Origin: Cliona cf. orientalis
Lineage: Eukaryota > Porifera > Demospongiae > Clionaida > Clionaidae
Length of the DNA stretch: 64,000 nt
Assembly (NCBI GenBank): GCA_963930775.1
Contig: OZ005705.1
Location: 434,001-498,000, forward strand
Direction: 5' to 3'
Both the position numbers and the translations under genes were made by a program. Positions 1-9,631 of this stretch are shown one piece after another. The notes beneath the pieces are model-generated. The model was not told the origin of the DNA, made no database searches, and worked only from the letters and a program-made list of their open reading frames with translations. Numbering within the stretch: the stretch's first letter is position 1; each line of letters opens with the position of its first letter.

Positions 1-3000
1 AGCTCTGTGACTTTAGTGAGCAGGATCTGGGAGGTAGTGAATACAACATCAGGAAGAACACTGGGATAAAACTCGAAGATGTTGAGCTGAGCAAGGTACT
101 CGATGGCAGCTTGGAGTCTAACTTTGTCCATTCCAAGACGACCAGCCACCTCAAGGCACTTTTTGAAGCTGATGATCCCTTGTTGAGAAAGCTCTTGAAG
201 GAGTGACTCCAAGACAAACCATCTGATGGGAATCTTTCGCTCGTGCCTTTGACATTTCTCCATTATGTCTTGCCTGAAGCTAGCAACTACTTGCTTATCG
301 GCTGCCGATGGTGTTTGGGCATTTACAGGATACAGAAGCTGGTCAACACTACCTAAGGAATTGTAGGCAAGGTGCTTGCGAAAGGTAGCATGTTGATGTA
401 AAATTGCACAAAGCTGAGCATTTTTATCACTAAGCGGCTCTTCTTGGCTTTCAAGGTCATAGTGTGTACCGATAAAGAAGAGCTCTGGGCACTTGACTGT
501 ATCTTCAATCAAACACCTTGCCTGCATAGCCTGAAGGCAATTCTGTATGATCTGGAGGTTGGTCTGAGAAGACTGGTAAGGCTCACACAAGCACCCACCT
601 TTGCTGTAGTACTCTATCATCGGTCTAGTGGCTAAAGTTTCATTGAGCTTGACAAAGAAAGCAACGGCTGACACGTGGCGTACAAAAGTTGGAAGTAGCT
701 CGTGAAACTGCGGCTGCCCTCCACTGTCTACGATGTACAGCCATTCTCGTCTAAGCAGCTCAACTGATCCTTTAGACTGCGATATCATACCAAGAAGCTG
801 CTTCACTGATTCCGTCTCAAAAAGCTGATCAATATCAGATAACTGGGGTTGATTCACTGTAATTGCTTCTGTAGGACTAACTATAGCGGTTTCTGCCCGG
901 TCCATTTCTCTGTACATCTCGTGTGCACTAACAGTGTGTTCTATCAGAGGCACTACCCTATGCTGGAGGTCTTCACTCACTGACAAAAGCACTGACAGGT
1001 GTTCAGCTATTACCCCAGGGTTGGTACCAGGCTCAAAACTCTTGATGTTTTCAGCAATTAGACTATTGAACATCTCTGCTGAAATTCGCTCCCAAAAGAC
1101 AGCTCCCTCTCTGTGAGACAATGCCACTCGCTCGAAAGAAAGACCCTTGGCCCTACCACTGACAGAGCTGTTGGCTCTAATGGATGATTTGGCCAAAGGA
1201 GTGCTTTCTCTGAAAGAAGGAGGAGGCTCGTCAAAAAGCATGTGACAAAAGCACGTCTTTCCAGCTCCAGCAACACCAATAAGCAAAAGAACAATGGTGT
1301 GCAATACAACGTAACCACTCTGCATAGCTTCTTGAAAGAGCTTCTTTGATTGATCAGCTGTAGGGAATAACATTAGTGACTGTTAGTGTGCACTGATCAT
1401 AGAGATTCTGTGTAGCAGCATACCTTTTGGCTCGGATAGTTCAACAGATTTTGAGTCAGTTACCTCAGGATGAACCTGCATTGGTATTGAGGCAGGGCAG
1501 GATAAATTTGCAGACCTTAGCTTATCAGTCCATACCCAAATCACTGTTTCCTCGTTGTATAGCATAGCTACACAAATGTATCATACCTGGTCGGTTGGTG
1601 GGGGTGTGGTCTTGGAATCAGAATCCGAAGGCTGTGTGGGTAGAGCAGTGCTAGTAGCTGATGAATCTGGTTGCCCTGAATTGGAGGTGTGTTTTAGGAA
1701 CCAAACCTGTTCGATCTCCTAGTTTAACCTGTACACAATAATAATATAATAAATAGCGCTATCTAGAGCATATACCCCATGGGGCACTACACATCCTGCC
1801 ACTGTAATGCACTATAGCAGCTGTAGTCACATTTTCCAATTTGACGACCATTACCTGATTTAATTTGCCTCATACCCCTAACTGTATTCACACCATTTTG
1901 TTTACCTTCCACCATCCACTGGAGTCCTTTTCCTTATCAGTGATCTCAATAGTCTCTCCAACTCGAACAGTTAGCTCATCGGCACTTTTAGCATCATAGT
2001 CAGCAATGACCTCCGCCTTGAAGTTCTCTATATCTGGTGATTGAGCAGTAGAGTAATGGGGGTGATAGGAGACTTCCCTTCTATAAATCAATTTTATCCA
2101 GGGGGAACAAAGCTCTACTTTATTTTGGGGGATTATATAAAGAGAGTGTCAACGTAGTTACCTTGCAAATGCCTGAGCTGGAATTCAATAGTAGATCCAT
2201 TCTTCAAGCCATGATCAGACACTTTATGTTCATCGTCAAGTTCCTTTCCCGCAAATATTAGTATCTGATCATCAGGCGGTATTCCTTCCTCATCTTCAAT
2301 CTTAGCCTTGACAGTCTCAATGGTGTCTGAAGCCTTCACTGTCAGAGTGATCCTCTTTCCATCTGGTGTCATCACATATATCAGCATTCTAACCACTGTA
2401 TAATATGATGGAAGATTTTCTCTATAATAATATTATACACATAGTTCAGCAAAAAAATCAACACTATTTCATTTTAAATTTACTATGTGGATGGGTATTG
2501 AAATTTATCACCTCATACAGATATCGGACAAAGCACAAATTTAATAATAATTATTATTATTATAACTAACTTTTGTGCCAAACTTTTATGACAGAATGTA
2601 TTGCAAATCCGCCTTGCATGCATGCCTAAGCCCACGTATAGGGTTTCATATTATAACAAAAAAACAGCATAATTATCCTAGTCAACATACAAATCATACA
2701 TGCAGAACTAAAATAACATACCTTTCATACCCCATCCTAGTCTTAGGAGTAGATCAATAGTTGATCCATCATTTATGCCATAATCAGACACTGTACATCC
2801 ATCTAGAAGATCTTTCCCAGCAAATATTATTCTCTGCCGATCAGGAGGCATTCCATCCACTGTTTTAATTTTATCCTTGACAGTCTCAATGGTGTCTGAA
2901 GCCCTCACCGTCAGAGGGATTACCTTTCCTGTCAGTGTCTTAACAAAGATCAACATGTCTGTACAATAATGAAAACAATATAATAGTAGAGCTTTGCCTC

Positions 3001-6000
3001 TCATCTTGGTATACTATAGTCTCATGAGAATAGCTCAGCCCTTCATGGGTAAGATACAAATTTATGTGCAATACAATGTGCACTACATGCTTCATTGCAA
3101 GTTTACTGCATGAGCATCTACAACACAACTTAGTATATATTTACCCTCAGCTCCAGCTGGTGCACTGTGATAGATCGTTGATCCCTCCTGTATTCCATAG
3201 TGACTCAATGTGCAGCCATTGTCTAACTCCTTCCCGTTATATAACAGCCGGTGGCTGTCAGGCGGAATTCCTTCTGCCGCATGAATCTTGTATTTGACAC
3301 TCAGAATGGTATCTGATTGCTTCACTATCAAAAGGATGGTCTTCCCCATCCACATCTTGATGTGTATCAGCGTATCACCTGTGAATGGAAATAAATTGAA
3401 AGTGTCCTCAATTCATTATATAGAAAATTATGAGGGAGGGCCAACTAACTGTAATAAGTAGGACCTGAACTGCCACCTTACCTGTGCTATAATTCATTGT
3501 CACTGTGTCTCCATCCTGTATGTTGTAGGCACTTAGCGTGCGCCCATCCTTGAGCAGACCACCAGAAAGTTTGAGTTTCTGTTCATCAGCAGGCACTCCA
3601 ATCTTTTTGTGAATCATAGATTTGAGGTGCTTAATAGTGTATGACGGCTGTGTCTCCAGGAAAACCTTCTTCCCTTTTGGTGTCAGGATAATTGCTGCAT
3701 AGCAGGTTTATCAAGAATCATGAAATTGTTGTATCAGCTACTACTCGACAGAGTATAGACGTACTTACTTCCAAGCACTGTCAGTTCTAATTTTGATCCA
3801 TTCCGTATGTTGTAATCATAAACTGCAACCCCATCTTCAAGCACTCTTCTGTTATAGGTCAGCCGTTGAGAATGCGGGGGTATGCCCTCCCTCCAGGAAA
3901 TCTTTTGCTTGACATCCTCAACAGTACATGGATGTGATACTTCCAGCCTGGTTATTTTCCCAGTTGGCATCTTCACAAGTACTGCACATAATGATTGTAC
4001 ATTACAGCATGGCGGGAAACATTCGAGGGAGAAAACTTTCATAGATCGGTAGCTGTCGAGTGAGCATCGTGGTGTCTCAAACCACAAAATTCATGAATTT
4101 TCTCCCTCAAAAGTGTCCCACTATACCACAACCTCTTATACTCAGCCTCTTCCCAGATTTTCACTATCACATAAGAAAAGTGTCCATGCAGAGTTTCAAA
4201 ACCTAGGCCTGGGAAGAGCCCATGTACAAGGCTATAATATAATACACAGTATAATAGCAGTGAAATAACCTAAGTAATGGAACAATCCTATACAACATTA
4301 ACATAAAATCGTTCTGGAAATATTTTCAGCAGCTCCTCTCTTTGATGAAAAGTATTTTCTCCTGTTTTAGAAACTACATGGAGGGTGTGGTACAACAGTT
4401 GCATACCTTCCCACTCCGTGGTCCTCAGAGATAGCTGTGTACCCTCCAGTATGTTGTAGTCACGTAATGTATGTCCACCTTGAAGTTCTTTCTGTGCAAA
4501 ATTCAGTTGCTGGCACTCATGAGGTATTCGTCCCTTCTCTTGAATCTTAACCTTGACAGCCTCAATGGTGTCAGAGAATGCTACCTCCAGAGTGAAGATA
4601 TTTTCTTCATATTCTTGCTTCACAACTATCTGGTACCGAACATCTGAGGAAATACACTGTCATGTATACATGCAATTTCTAGTATAACAGGAGCTAAGAG
4701 AAATCTTTATGCTTTAACTACTCTCGTTGACCTAGAATTTGTTGTAACACACTCCACCCTCCCCCTTCGTCAGCAACAAGTGCAGGATTTCAGAAGAGTA
4801 CAAGGTGTGGCATTACGCATATGCAAACATTTTAACAGAGGACTTCAACAAATGATCTAGGGTGCCTGGGCATTTACCCCACCCCCCCCCTTGCTGAATC
4901 ATGTCTGTGATGACCTTTACCAAATGACCCCATACTTTTAGTATAGTGACTGGTATTTAATTAAGAGGGATTGAAACCAGTATGGCAAGGGTACATGAAC
5001 CTCCATCCTACCTAGATTTAATGTGGCTCCATCCTGTATGCCATAGCCACTCAGTGTGTGTCCATCTTCAAGATATCGACTATCAAACATGAGTTTTACT
5101 CTATCAGCAGTAATTCCTTTTTTTTCTTGAATCATAGCTTTGACACGCCCAATGGTGAATGAAGGCTGTGTCTCCAGATAGACGTTACCTTTTGGCGTCC
5201 AGACAGTTACTGGCAGGGTGCAAATAGAAAGGTTATCATTTCCATATCAATTATACATGTTACATCAGCACTTGAACTTACTTCCTTTCCTGACCTCTAA
5301 GTCTAATGTTGATTCATACTCTACGCCATACTCATCCAATGTGTGTCCATCTTCAAGCACTCTCTTCTTAAACTTTAACTGTAGATAGTGTGGGGGTATG
5401 CCCTCCTTCTGGGAAATCACTCGCCTGATGCTATCAATGGCAAATGGCTCAGGTACGTATAGCTCGACAGTGTTCCCTGTTGGCAGCTTCATGTACACTG
5501 CATAAAAACTCAACAATAATATGCTGTACATGTACATATTCTAACTACAGTAATTCAGAACAGCTGGTTATCTACCTGTCCAGTATAGCCTTTGTGCCAG
5601 GTGTAACGTTGACCCTACTTGTATCTTCTGGTCTCTTAATGTGTGTCCGTCTTCCAGCTGCTTCAAAGCTGAAGTGATCAACCATTGCTGAACAGCAGGA
5701 GGTATTCCTGGCTCCTTCCCATAAATCTTAGCCTTGACAGTCTCGATGGTGTCTGAAGGCTTCACGTCCAGAGAGATGGTCTTTCCAGCTCCCGGTATCC
5801 TTACAAATATCTTATACAGCCCATCTCCTACATTTTGTTATTAATATCCCACATACACATATGTACATCACACAAAATCTTCTGGAGGGGTGAATATATT
5901 AAATATTTAATCATAGATAATTAAGACTGCGCAGTCTTAATTATCTATGATTTAATATGGCAGGCTGGATGGGAATTTGGAGAACATATACATAGAGCCT

Positions 6001-6044
6001 TAAAAGGGCTTGGAAGATCATAGTACGCTCACTCACTTACCCAT
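1..6044 (-). CDS. Poly-ubiquitin-like / SH3 / Roco-like GTPase fusion protein (3' end beyond window)
   Basis: Exons in transcript order: 6044-6041, 5827-5576, 5497-5282, 5209-5012, 4643-4407, 3981-3769, 3694-3482, 3378-3145, 2958-2722, 2395-2162, 2027-1906, 1728-1587, about 1550-1424, and 1357 to the edge. Exon 1 supplies only ATG plus one base. The next nine exons each encode one ubiquitin-like domain, with recurring cores such as [23 protein letters not shown] and IQDGSTL. An SH3 domain follows across two exons (ADYDA, SGWWK, then GLVPKTHL). The last exon encodes a P-loop (GVAGAGKT), a switch-like [10 protein letters not shown], a GTHYD base-recognition-like motif and a COR-like helical stretch to the window edge. 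All UBL introns are phase 1. No UBL ends in Gly-Gly, so they are probably non-cleaved interaction modules. A reading-frame break in exon 1728-1587 is unresolved. The protein is probably a cytoplasmic signalling scaffold (inference). Domain calls are strong; the single-gene model rests on continuous phase. Confidence 0.8.
1587..1728 (-). other. Exon with unresolved reading frame
   Basis: The exon enters in phase 0 and completes the SH3 domain (GLVPKTHLQ), but that frame then meets TAG and TGA. The frame shifted by one base is open through a Ser/Thr/Pro-rich linker and joins the next exon if the acceptor at 1551-1552 is used. A sequencing indel at the A4 run near 1698, an unrecognised intron, or a real frameshift could each explain it. 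Confidence 0.5.
4003..4130. mobile_element. Short inverted-repeat element (MITE fragment)
   Basis: This lies in the intron between the fourth and fifth UBL exons. Its two ends are inverted copies of a GGCGGGAAACATTCGAGG-like sequence followed by GAGAAAA, and they match the ends of the longer element at 56181-56393. The terminal TACCGTA is degraded here. It is probably an old deleted copy. Confidence 0.55.
5909..5952. repeat. 44-bp perfect palindrome
   Basis: Two 22-bp arms meet with no spacer at 5930/5931 (centre AAGACTGCGCAGTCTT). It lies in the first intron of the poly-UBL gene, just downstream of its predicted start. It could be a minimal palindromic element or a dyad binding site. Confidence 0.85.
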
Positions 6045-6244: not shown

Positions 6245-7825
6245 TTAAGGCACGTCATCATTAGAATTACAGCATTGATAAATAGAACTAGTCCAGTTAT
6301 ACAAGTACCCATGATAACGGTGAAAATATGTCCTCTGCGAGCAGAATATTCCTTTGGCCTCCATTGAGCTCTGCAGGGAATACATACTAGAGGGCGGGAC
6401 TTTATGGGACACCAGGTAGGGCCACTTGCAGCCCTTCGTGAAGGCCCTAGTGTTGAACCTCGAGTCATGTTTCCGTTCAACATTATAGGGAGCAAGCCAA
6501 GCAGCCACGGACACATCCTCACTCTTGTACTGCTTTAAGTGAGGCTCATTCTCGACCAGCAGCTGGACCACATCTCTAGAGAGAATATAGCCACCTCCAT
6601 AAGCATACGGGAGGTACTTGTCACAGATTGACCAATGAAATTCTCTGTACGCTCCCCAGAATAGTACGGGAGCATAGCCTCGGAAGGCACCCCAGTAGAG
6701 ACGCTCCTTGCTGGGTCTTCTGTGGAGCACTGTGGCCAGTCTGAGCATATCGACGAAATCGTCATCATCACATTTCAGAATGTAGTCAAATTTGAAGCGA
6801 TCGTAGGTGTACTTGAATCCGTAGAGAGTTCTCTGAGTTAGAGTGTAGAGGGAATCGGTGACAGTGGGTAGGATGATCATGTCTTTATGCTTGGAAGACT
6901 CAATCTCCAGCTGATGTAACTTGTCTGGACTGACACCAGACCCTCCCAGCACAAACCTGCGCACATCAAAATAAGTACAAATATAGAAATAATTCCAATC
7001 CTTAAAAGGTAGCTACTATAAATATTTATGTAACTTTATTAAATCATGCCAATATCGGTACATAAAAAGTTTAACATTACATGTAGCTTGTTGGCACCTG
7101 TATTGAATTGGTGATGTATCTAGATTAGTGATATCTTTGGCCCATGTTGCTCGTATTGCAGTCCTCCTCTTGATTCCCATCACACTGGCGTGGATCAGGA
7201 CCAGCAACAGGTTGGCCGGCAGCTGAGACTGACCAAGCGGCTTGATGACTTGACAACTCTCGTCAATACACGTCTCAGGAACAACATATGCTGCAAATTA
7301 TATAATAGCATGAAAATAATTCTATACTCGGGTCATACTTTAGGCCCCCAACGTTTCACTTGACCAACGCAGTCTACCCTAATATGTGGGTGGAGGGGGG
7401 GGGTGCGACTTACCAGATCAGCAAAATTTAAAATTCCCCTTCGGATTTTACCGTATACCACAAGGTATGACCAAGACTACTATAACAAATAAAGTAATAG
7501 GTGCAGAATGAATTCAAATAAATTTTCATAGACCACATGTGTCCTATGTTAGCTCAATCAACGATAAAATTAAATTACCCAGTCTCTGCTTGTCGTTGTA
7601 GCAGCTGGCAGCGTAGTAGGCGATCATGAGTGTCCAGGCCAGTGCACAGCCGTACCACGAGTACCTCGCCCATCGCGATCGGCGCAGCGTTCTCGTTATT
7701 CGGTACCACACGAGTCCACAAGGCCGAAGCCAGCGGGGACACGTTCTGGTGTGAAATGTCATCCAGATGCGAATGAAAGTCATTATCCACGGGCCTCGCC
7801 CCTGTGGCCGTGGCTTATTAGCCAC
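6245..7825 (-). CDS. B3GALT6: Beta-1,3-galactosyltransferase 6-like (proteoglycan linker GalT-II, GT31)
   Basis: Exons 7825-7579, 7290-7098 and 6956-6245 encode 383 residues. A basic N-terminus followed by a membrane segment around WYGCALAWTLMIAYYAASC predicts a type II Golgi protein. The GT31 motifs are in order: RRTAIRATW, FVLGGSG, the metal-binding acidic run KCDDDDFVD (about residues 209-217), YGGGYILS and EDVSVAAWLAP. The end YNWTSSIYQCC followed by an acidic tail closely resembles the C-terminus of B3GALT6, which adds the second galactose of the glycosaminoglycan linker tetrasaccharide. A second in-frame ATG at 7783 could also start the protein. It is divergent from the SDR gene, 85 bp away. 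Confidence 0.9.
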
Positions 7826-7910
7826 GCCCTTGACAATGCTACCCTATTACGCATGCGCACGGATAGCCACGCCCCTGAATTGGCGATACTGTACCCAATT
7901 TTTCAATACT
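7826..7910. promoter_or_regulatory. Divergent promoter gap
   Basis: Only 85 bp separate the ATG of the galactosyltransferase gene (minus) from that of the SDR gene (plus), so promoter and 5' UTR elements must be shared. No TATA box is evident. Confidence 0.55.
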
Positions 7911-9631
7911 ATGGGTGTGTTGAAAAAGGTGATTATCCTGAGCTGCCTGGTGCTGCTGGCTGCGCTGGTATGGCAGTGGACACGATCTGTTGATATTCAG
8001 GGTAAAAAAGTTCATGAGCCATAATTTGAAGCATCATAAAATTATGTTTACTCAATATCATAGAATTCTACAAGGGCAAGCGGGTTATCTTGACTGGTGC
8101 ATCTCGTGGCATTGGAAAGAGCTTGGCCATCCAATTAGCACAGCTCGGAGCCAAGTAAATCCAGCCTTGAATACTTCATAAAGCATGATACTATCCTCAA
8201 ACCAAGCTCACAGCCCCTCTGCATGCTATCCCATTGAGACGATAAATTCTTATTTACTCAATCACAGAGCAGGGAGAAAGCATTCTTTGAGTAGCTATTG
8301 TGCCATTTATATAATTTGTCTGAACAGGTCTCCAGAATCTAAAATAATAATAATGATCTTCATGCAGGGTTGTGATAGCTGCTCGCACAGCTGACAAACT
8401 TGCAGAGACCAAGCGAGAGTGTGAACAGTACACCTCTGGTGTGCACACGGTCATTGCTGATGTATCTAAGGAGGATGACTGCAGAGAGATTGTGAATAAA
8501 GCTGTGGAAGAGTTTGGTGGCATTGATATCCTCATACTGAATGCTGCATATTCCCCTACACCCCAGTTCTTCACTGATAGCAAGAAGCCTGTGAGTACTC
8601 ACTCTGTAACTATAGATACAGTCATACTATAGCCAATACTATGAGTAGTATTTACCTTGCATGGGCTTGATGTGAACTACAGTTTCTGAGCCTACTTCCT
8701 GTCTTACTGTAAGAGCTTACCTTTTGTGACTTTATCTGTATCCACAGCATGGAAAGGAGTTTGCTGATGTGTTCAGGTGAGCACTCACAGGGTTTGTGTA
8801 TGTTTGCCCAAAGTTATATAATACTGCTCACTGCTAGTATAAATAACCTCTGCTTTATTATTAATTCCCCACTGCAGTGTAAATGTGCTACAGAGCATTC
8901 ACTTGGTGCACTTTTCTCTCCCATATTTGAACGCGAGTCGTGGAATCATTGTACCAGTATCATCAGGTGCTGGTAAGTGACGAATTATTGATAAAATTTA
9001 ATTTCACCACCTATGGTCAAGAATAATTATCCAGAGTGCTAACAAGAGTATATACTCTTGGTGCTAATCGTTAACAATAATCCTCCAGGCCTCACTGCTA
9101 TTCCCAAGACTGCACCCTATGGAACCAGTAAACACGCCCTTCATGGTAAAAAGTGTCCAATTGAGATAAAACTGGCTTTAATAAAAATTGTTATTGTAGG
9201 CTTTTTCAAAGCACTTAACCAGGAGTTCATACTAACCAACACCCCAATATCCATCTCCATAATGCCACTACCCTATGTGCTGACGAAAAAGGTGTGTGCT
9301 TGGAATAATAATATTGCCGATGTAGATTTCTATTATTAAAATTAATTCGATACAGGCTGTAGACAATTGGAAACCTATTGGTACAGGTGATGGCATTACA
9401 CCAGAGGTATAATTTTACATTTCATTTTTTGAATAAAATTTTATTACACCATCATGTTTAATCCTGCAGGATTGTGCTGATCGTATGCTTAGGGGGATTC
9501 CCCTCAGACAGCTTTGGTACTATGTCGACTGGACAATCTTTGCTGTCGCTCACCTGTACTCACTTGCTCCTGAGTTTTTTGACTGGTTTGTTCGGATTTA
9601 CCTGCCTACTACTAGCAACTTATTTGTTTAA
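7911..9631 (+). CDS. Short-chain dehydrogenase, 11-beta-hydroxysteroid dehydrogenase 1-like
   Basis: Exons 7911-8001, 8064-8154, 8368-8590, 8748-8776, 8878-8972, 9089-9145, 9200-9291, 9356-9406 and 9470-9631 encode 296 residues; HSD11B1 is about 290. An N-terminal hydrophobic anchor (VIILSCLVLLAALVWQW) suggests an ER membrane enzyme. The NADP-binding loop is TGASRGIGKS, the structural motif is LNAA, and the catalytic residues are the Ser of VSSGAG and YGTSK. The layout (DMLILN-like stretch, SKHALHGFFKAL, an NVSIT-like strand, then a WYYVD tail) fits the HSD11B1/DHRS7 branch. The substrate cannot be read from sequence and may be a steroid, retinoid or lipid carbonyl. A possible AATAAA lies at 9716. 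Confidence 0.88.

Follow-up and report, generated by a model that had tools for sequence, protein, structure and literature searches.

A probable Roco GTPase gene with a Death domain and a front end of nine ubiquitin-like domains and SH3 in the sponge Cliona cf. orientalis

DAPK1 carries an N-terminal kinase and ankyrin repeats. It is described as combining a Roc-COR region with a C-terminal Death domain, without leucine-rich repeats (LRRs; PMC6337361), and in this it resembles a predicted gene of the sponge Cliona cf. orientalis found at one end of a 64,000-nucleotide stretch of contig OZ005705.1 (assembly GCA_963930775.1, 216.8 Mb in 149 contigs). This whole stretch, C17:434001-498000, is hereafter called the window. 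The gene lies at C17:432697-440044 on the minus strand, and its predicted domain order is nine ubiquitin-like (UBL) domains, SH3, Roc-COR and Death. It differs from DAPK1 in its nine UBLs and SH3 domain, in that neither a kinase nor ankyrin repeats are among the exons found, and in its divergent Roc-COR region, which has a long insert between the G1 and G3 motifs. An earlier note, made from the window alone, had joined the UBLs, the SH3 domain and a GTPase in one gene and proposed it as an undescribed signalling system; the observation is partly confirmed here, and the interpretation is partly supported.

Large Roco (Roc-COR) families have been described elsewhere. Trichoplax adhaerens has at least 17 multidomain ROCO genes, in which Roc-COR occurs amid Death, CARD and SH3 domains and, in three cases, with N-terminal Ras-like domains (PMC4104024). 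Death, CARD-like and Ras-family domains are likewise neighbours of Roc-COR exons in the Cliona genome, whereas the word 'ubiquitin' has no occurrence in the main text of PMC4104024, and the exon-level count in Cliona is approximately 14 times larger. Brown algae have 9 to 47 ROCO genes per species, compared with four in humans, and the algal proteins have N-terminal arrays in which one repeat corresponds to one exon and are proposed to be immune receptors (PMC11378527). The expanded family and the one-repeat-one-exon N-terminal array are shared with the sponge gene, but the algal arrays consist of LRRs, whereas here an array of UBLs is combined with a Death domain.

The TRADD-N/Death proteins of the sponge Amphimedon have undergone a lineage-specific expansion with swapping of Death-like and SH3 domains, and ubiquitin is among the partner domains named for such animal systems, although the parts of that work covered here mention Roco only in the title of a reference and describe no UBL array joined to Roc-COR (PMC8195603). 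For NLR-type genes of the sponge Dysidea avara, a figure legend names UBQ, COR, Death and CARD domains; these are, however, NACHT genes, and the carriers of UBQ and COR among them are not visible in the text (PMC12909245). No paper recognisably describing the order 9xUBL-SH3-Roc-COR-Death was found in open-licence PMC, which is not proof that there is none. The proposal of an undescribed system therefore has to be narrowed: the association of Roc-COR with Death, CARD, SH3 and Ras-like domains is already known from Trichoplax (PMC4104024), and it is the nine-UBL-SH3 front end for which no match was found. The gene is real and unusual: the switch is of a known kind, and the front end is new.

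On balance, the gene is probably a member of a lineage-expanded Roco GTPase family, bearing a Death domain at the C terminus and a nine-UBL-SH3 module at the N terminus, and it is best read as a signalling scaffold of the Roco/death-fold kind that has a UBL-SH3 input module of its own. This module was found intact nowhere else in the genome. This reading starts from what is directly observed, namely the domains and their order, the splice sites, the constraint on the GTPase exon and a lower bound for the size of the family. The gene starts at window position 6044, the first in-frame ATG downstream of a genomic stop, and continues beyond the left edge of the window; its end, a Death exon with the stop codon, lies outside the window and was absent from the order given in the earlier note. 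The exons are as follows, in window coordinates unless stated otherwise.

6041-6044, minus strand: end of exon 1 (ATG G, followed by the donor GTAAGT)
5576-5827, minus strand: UBL1 exon, phase 1-1 (PF00240, 1.9e-14)
5282-5497, minus strand: UBL2 exon, phase 1-1 (PF00240, 4.3e-11)
5012-5209, minus strand: UBL3 exon, phase 1-1 (PF00240, 7.1e-14)
4407-4643, minus strand: UBL4 exon, phase 1-1 (PF00240, 3.1e-14)
3769-3981, minus strand: UBL5 exon, phase 1-1 (PF00240, 9.3e-17)
3482-3694, minus strand: UBL6 exon, phase 1-1 (PF00240, 6.4e-18)
3145-3378, minus strand: UBL7 exon, phase 1-1 (PF00240, 1.8e-19)
2722-2958, minus strand: UBL8 exon, phase 1-1 (PF00240, 7e-23), the sole UBL near the ubiquitin Ile44 patch
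2162-2395, minus strand: UBL9 exon, phase 1-1 (PF00240, 5.5e-23)
1906-2033, minus strand: first SH3 exon, phase 1-0 (PF00018, 3.1e-10, over the cut-off, positions 2-36 of 48)
1587-1728, minus strand: second SH3 exon and Pro/Ser-rich linker; the second SH3 half is present, with an internal frame conflict
1424-1475, minus strand: linker exon; the three closest paralogues become homologous within or just past it
1-1357, extending left of the window to C17:433156, minus strand: Roc-COR exon, phase 1-1 (733 complete codons)
C17:433028-432697 (window -972 to -1303; L010:8697-9028), outside the window, minus strand: Death-domain exon and stop TAG (PF00531, 9.1e-7, over the cut-off)

GT and AG are present at all 14 introns, all UBL exons and the GTPase exon have phase 1 on both sides, and the phases agree across the 14 introns provided that every exon is taken in its own reading frame. 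The Pro/Ser-rich linker and the short linker exon stand between the SH3 domain and the Roc-COR exon. The exons are assigned to one gene because all 14 introns are short (66-425 bases) and because the sole AATAAA or ATTAAA 3' of the SH3 exons is the AATAAA after the Death exon, 80 bases past the TAG at C17:432697. Further to the left on the same strand there are other SH3 exons which, as they lie beyond the stop and poly(A) signal of this gene, probably belong to another one.

The identity of the GTPase was approached through its family. The alignment comprises the window exon and 17 of 20 other loci (L027-L045 and L019); the other three (L033, L039 and L044) were excluded as interrupted or short. 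Pfam Roc was matched, at E values up to 1, in all 18 members (best 4.2e-5), and all 18 contain the motifs G1 (GxxGxGK[TS]), RxST, G3 (DxGGQ) and G4 (GTHxD). General P-loop families were also matched (Ras and AAA_22 in 10 members each), and Pfam COR-A was matched in two of the 18 (best 2.8e-6), not including the window gene. When the family profile was aligned by hhalign, as a single pair, with a profile of LRRK-like Roc-COR, the probability was 89.4% (E 2.1e-6) over 277 columns reaching from G3 to COR-B. The reference profile consists of four Roc-COR sequences of the same genome (C18, C10, C5 and C16:5516676), which also have GTHxD, and it matches LRRK2 structures at 1.3e-77. Given the Roc matches, the G motifs and this alignment, the window GTPase and its relatives are classed, on sequence grounds, as a divergent Roc-COR family. 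Affiliation with NLR/STAND proteins was considered and rejected, with NACHT matched in one member (0.58), nSTAND6 in one (0.11) and a G4 of the form THxD. Searches of PDB with the GTPase exon by phmmer gave nothing usable (best 0.34), a profile search of PDB based on the family yielded only weak matches, mostly Rab proteins (best 0.0061), and the matches in NCBIfam were also weak (best 0.0027). The ratio of nonsynonymous to synonymous substitution rates (dN/dS) of the Roc-COR exon is 0.154, 0.190 and 0.166 against the paralogues L027, L028 and L029, respectively, by which measure the exon is under purifying selection.

A genome search with the GTPase exon gave at least 136 matches at no fewer than 92 loci, of which 70 are on C3, and Pfam COR-A gave at least 150 matches (147 of those listed over the cut-off). 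Measured on the same strand, no listed COR-A locus comes closer than 3 kb to any of the 92 GTPase loci; as the two lists do not overlap, there are at least 242 Roc-COR-like loci in all, an exon-level, six-frame count from genomic sequence in which some rows contain stop codons and pseudogenes are possibly included. This repertoire is far above those of brown algae (9-47), Trichoplax (at least 17) and humans (4), and the larger surprise is how big, and apparently how modular, the Roco family of this genome is. COR-A loci in long open frames are found at C16:401535-951974 (several in tandem), C16:5516676, C10:7090639, C18:3064162 and C5:9545976.

The apparent modularity is seen in the three closest paralogues, L027-L029, whose identity to the window exon is 83-87% by tblastn, 85-87% in the family alignment and 86-88% in the genome search. 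Over the 1.5 kb compared, homology with them ends 75-106 bases upstream of the Roc-COR exon, and this 1.5 kb contains no SH3, UBL or linker match; among the matches listed (136 UBL and 122 SH3), none was seen by eye within 20 kb of L027-L029. Because homology stops approximately 100 bases upstream of the exon, the front ends of family members look to have been swapped, or to be interchangeable. At L034 (C12:2468913-2473253), Ras-family small-GTPase exons (1.6e-9 and 1.5e-11) are found directly upstream of the Roc-COR exon, an arrangement resembling the Trichoplax proteins with Ras-like and ROC-COR domains as described in PMC4104024. For L029 a kinase front end was entertained on account of a C-lobe-like motif noticed by eye; it was discarded, there being no Pfam match and nothing kinase-like to the eye in a further 3 kb upstream. 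When 59 of the 136 listed UBL positions were compared with the GTPase and COR loci, only three, the window's two and C3:3052788, had such a locus on their own strand at a distance of 20 kb or less. The last of these (C3:3052788-3052988, minus strand) is a lone UBL match that lies on the same strand as the family member C3:3035361, 17 kb upstream of it, and could belong to another UBL-Roco gene or to a gene of its own.

At the other end of the protein, the Death domain recurs in the family. Open reading frames (ORFs) were taken downstream of 10 of the 20 other loci, having been chosen as matching or death-like (that of L034 is cut by the locus end), and they include five with Death over the cut-off, one with a sub-threshold Death and one with a CARD just below the cut-off. 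In two of the 18 aligned members the Death domain is inside the Roc-COR exon itself. The CARD match (7.7e-5) is a CARD-like exon at L041:239-646, minus strand, downstream of the Roc-COR exon in the place taken by Death in several relatives.

In ISG15, ubiquitin-fold domains follow each other head to tail with hardly any linker, and L8, R42, I44, K48, K63, H68 and V70 are contact residues of ubiquitin itself. The UBL array is similar to ISG15 and polyubiquitin in being a head-to-tail series of ubiquitin-fold domains, one to each of nine exons, and all nine exceed the PF00240 cut-off of 25.4 bits (42.8-81.0 bits; E 4.3e-11 to 5.5e-23), as had been claimed. Unlike those proteins, however, none of the nine ends in Gly-Gly, their surfaces have diverged, and they are fused to a GTPase and a Death domain. 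As there is no Gly-Gly end, a polyubiquitin precursor was rejected, as in the earlier note, and this mark of conjugated ubiquitin-like modifiers is likewise missing.

That note had also suggested that the chain could mimic polyubiquitin. It is conceivable that a non-cleavable chain would recruit ubiquitin-binding adaptors to the GTPase switch, since the units are consecutive exons of 66-84 codons, close to the 76 of linear ubiquitin, and UBL8 keeps L8, R42, I44, G47 and K48 while UBL9 keeps I44, G47 and K48. Across the chain, however, K48 is kept in five of nine, R42 in three, I44 in two, L8 and H68 in one each, and V70 and K63 in none (an insertion in UBL1 makes its residues 42-47 uncertain in this comparison). 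Moreover, each UBL shares an identity of its own with the same position in a second array, described below, which suggests separate tasks. Mimicry by the chain as a whole was therefore rejected, the ubiquitin surface not being kept, and we regard the adaptor-recruiting mimic as very improbable.

The second array is a collinear copy of all nine UBLs, with introns, at C7:4306222-4310557 (78-87% identity over the collinear pieces). It has decayed: UBL7 contains two TAA codons and UBL9 a single TAG, and UBL8 is disrupted by an indel of 5 bases. Homology stops at the SH3 acceptor, so that SH3, GTPase and Death are all missing; the sequence beyond looks, by eye, like the 3' untranslated region of the window gene. 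The simplest reading is that the C7 array would be a duplicate of the whole gene after loss of its SH3-GTPase-Death part, in which case the UBL array and the Death exon would have been tied as one unit, although a plain segmental duplication would give the same picture. In a tree of 41 UBLs the nearest relative of each window UBL is the C7 UBL at the same position, in all nine cases. Because the copy has all nine in the same order with these same-position relationships, the idea of a fixed chain of UBLs, already put forward in the note, is supported.

It might alternatively be supposed that the array is a passively duplicated spacer and that the protein would work through SH3, Roc-COR and Death alone. 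Single-exon UBLs of symmetric phase 1 duplicate easily; in the same tree UBL2 pairs with UBL5 and UBL3 with UBL6, as would be expected from a block duplication within the array (window 2162-5827); and dN/dS against the decayed C7 copy is above 1 in three of nine UBLs (UBL5 1.59, UBL8 3.65 and UBL9 1.09), on few synonymous changes. Nevertheless, all nine domains are well above the cut-off and largely retain the hydrophobic fold core, every position is matched in the C7 copy, and array-wide dN/dS against this decayed partner is 0.574, below 1 although not decisive. A mere spacer is distinctly unlikely.

UBL arrays are also found beside other kinds of exon. On C19 (L014 and L015; C19:6129001-6149000) they stand beside kinase exons (2.4e-30 and 6.6e-31) on the same strand, with a coiled coil, and one adjoins a Death-like exon (1.7e-4, just under the cut-off), also on the same strand. 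An array at L023 (C11:1121001-1131000) adjoins a kinase exon (9.1e-30) and another on C13 adjoins a Death exon (1.4e-4, just under the cut-off), on the same strand in each case; all of these, the C19 loci included, are adjacencies only. At L019, also on C13, a Roc-COR exon (L019:1767-4362, plus strand) is tail to tail with UBL exons (L019:5277-7578, minus strand) and is accompanied by a Death-like exon, a tblastn match to the Death domain of the window gene.

A number of points weigh against reading the locus as one Roco gene with a UBL-SH3 front end and a Death output. The gene model was read from genomic sequence alone, and an AATAAA at 2124 and an ATTAAA at 1864 are present in introns upstream of the second SH3 exon. 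The earlier call of a P-loop GTPase with COR-like sequence stands through the family and its profile; taken alone, the GTPase exon has a Pfam Roc match of only 0.027 (15.1 bits against a cut-off of 27; range 0.027-0.074), besides other weak P-loop matches, and no Pfam COR match. The G1-G3 stretch contains a long variable insert that does not align with the LRRK-like profile. Structure prediction, which the note had proposed as a check, was uninformative, the single-sequence AlphaFold model of the window part of the Roc-COR exon having a mean pLDDT (predicted local distance difference test) of 38.6. Five of the ten downstream ORFs fall short of a thresholded Death, three having neither Death nor CARD and two being sub-threshold, and we infer the ligands, partners and output. 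Finally, in the genomic sequence as given, a complete SH3 domain is not encoded in frame with the GTPase.

This last point concerns the exon at 1728-1587. The call of an SH3 domain is itself borne out by the first half-exon, but in the second the frame that completes SH3 reaches a TAG 25 codons on, and the linker and GTPase are in the +1 frame. Because of this conflict the phase-continuous chain claimed earlier is not fully right, its splice sites and phase-1 exons notwithstanding. An alternative acceptor at 1706 restores a continuous chain but removes the end of SH3, and it is weak, with five pyrimidines in the 17 bases before CAG compared with 10 of 17 for the acceptor at 1728. A 31-base intron within the exon, proposed by eye, would also restore the frame, but it seems too short and loses SH3 residues, and it was rejected. 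The genomic sequence does not distinguish between an indel (in the assembly or in one allele), alternative splicing and a real break. No second full copy of the SH3 region was found in the genome, the two matches being the region itself and a 50-base piece.

If the break is real, the locus could make two products, a UBL9-SH3 protein that stops at the TAG and a Roc-COR-Death protein made separately or no longer made at all. The frame conflict and the pyrimidine-poor acceptor are in keeping with this, as are the intronic poly(A)-like hexamers and the decay of the sister array on C7 without SH3, GTPase and Death. However, the linker and GTPase exons follow after introns of only 111 and 66 bases, with matching phases and little room for a promoter, and one base in a run of AAAA could be an assembly or allelic difference. 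The Roc-COR exon is also free of stops, and its dN against the paralogues (0.067-0.076) is about as low as theirs among themselves (0.059-0.073), so it cannot long have been free of constraint. Two products or a recent break are accordingly considered unlikely, and the single Roco gene remains the preferred reading.

On that reading, the nine distinct UBLs and the SH3 domain would most likely serve as a docking or sensing module that binds partners or ligands. Such binding may change the nucleotide state of Roc-COR or its monomer-dimer state; in a published model, Roc-COR proteins are proposed to alternate between monomeric and dimeric forms according to the nucleotide bound (PMC6337361). Clustered Death domains would then most likely recruit death-fold partners into death-fold assemblies and might start a signal such as cell death or an NF-kB-like or immune response, and other family members would couple the same switch and output to different front ends. 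The proposal in the note of a scaffold or immune-type signalling role on a GTPase switch fits the Roc-COR region, the C-terminal Death domain and the very large family, whose apparently interchangeable front ends suggest a cell-signalling or immune-type switchboard. A bolder version, to which we give little credence, is that Roco GTPases form the basis of an NLR-like receptor system, with a conserved Roc-COR-Death engine and swappable front ends, in which pathogen or symbiont effectors directed at the ubiquitin system would meet the nine UBLs as integrated decoys or sensors. If expressed as predicted, the gene would unite ubiquitin-fold, SH3 and GTPase-switch signalling with a death-fold output in a single protein. 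The family, if truly of this kind, would offer a natural collection of ways to regulate Roc-COR, of interest for LRRK2 and DAPK1, and a test case for Roco proteins as swappable immune receptors.

SH3 and Roco sequences also meet elsewhere in the genome. At C7:1888541-2143139, plus strand, eight of nine listed COR-A loci (one of the nine is below the cut-off, and the pairing was done by eye) are followed on the same strand by an SH3 match no more than 10 kb downstream (about 2 kb in four cases), pointing to a putative second Roco-SH3 class. Within the window, the gene has two neighbours recognised by eye only, one at 6245-7800 (minus strand) resembling a glycosyltransferase and one at 7900-8980 (plus strand) resembling a short-chain dehydrogenase.

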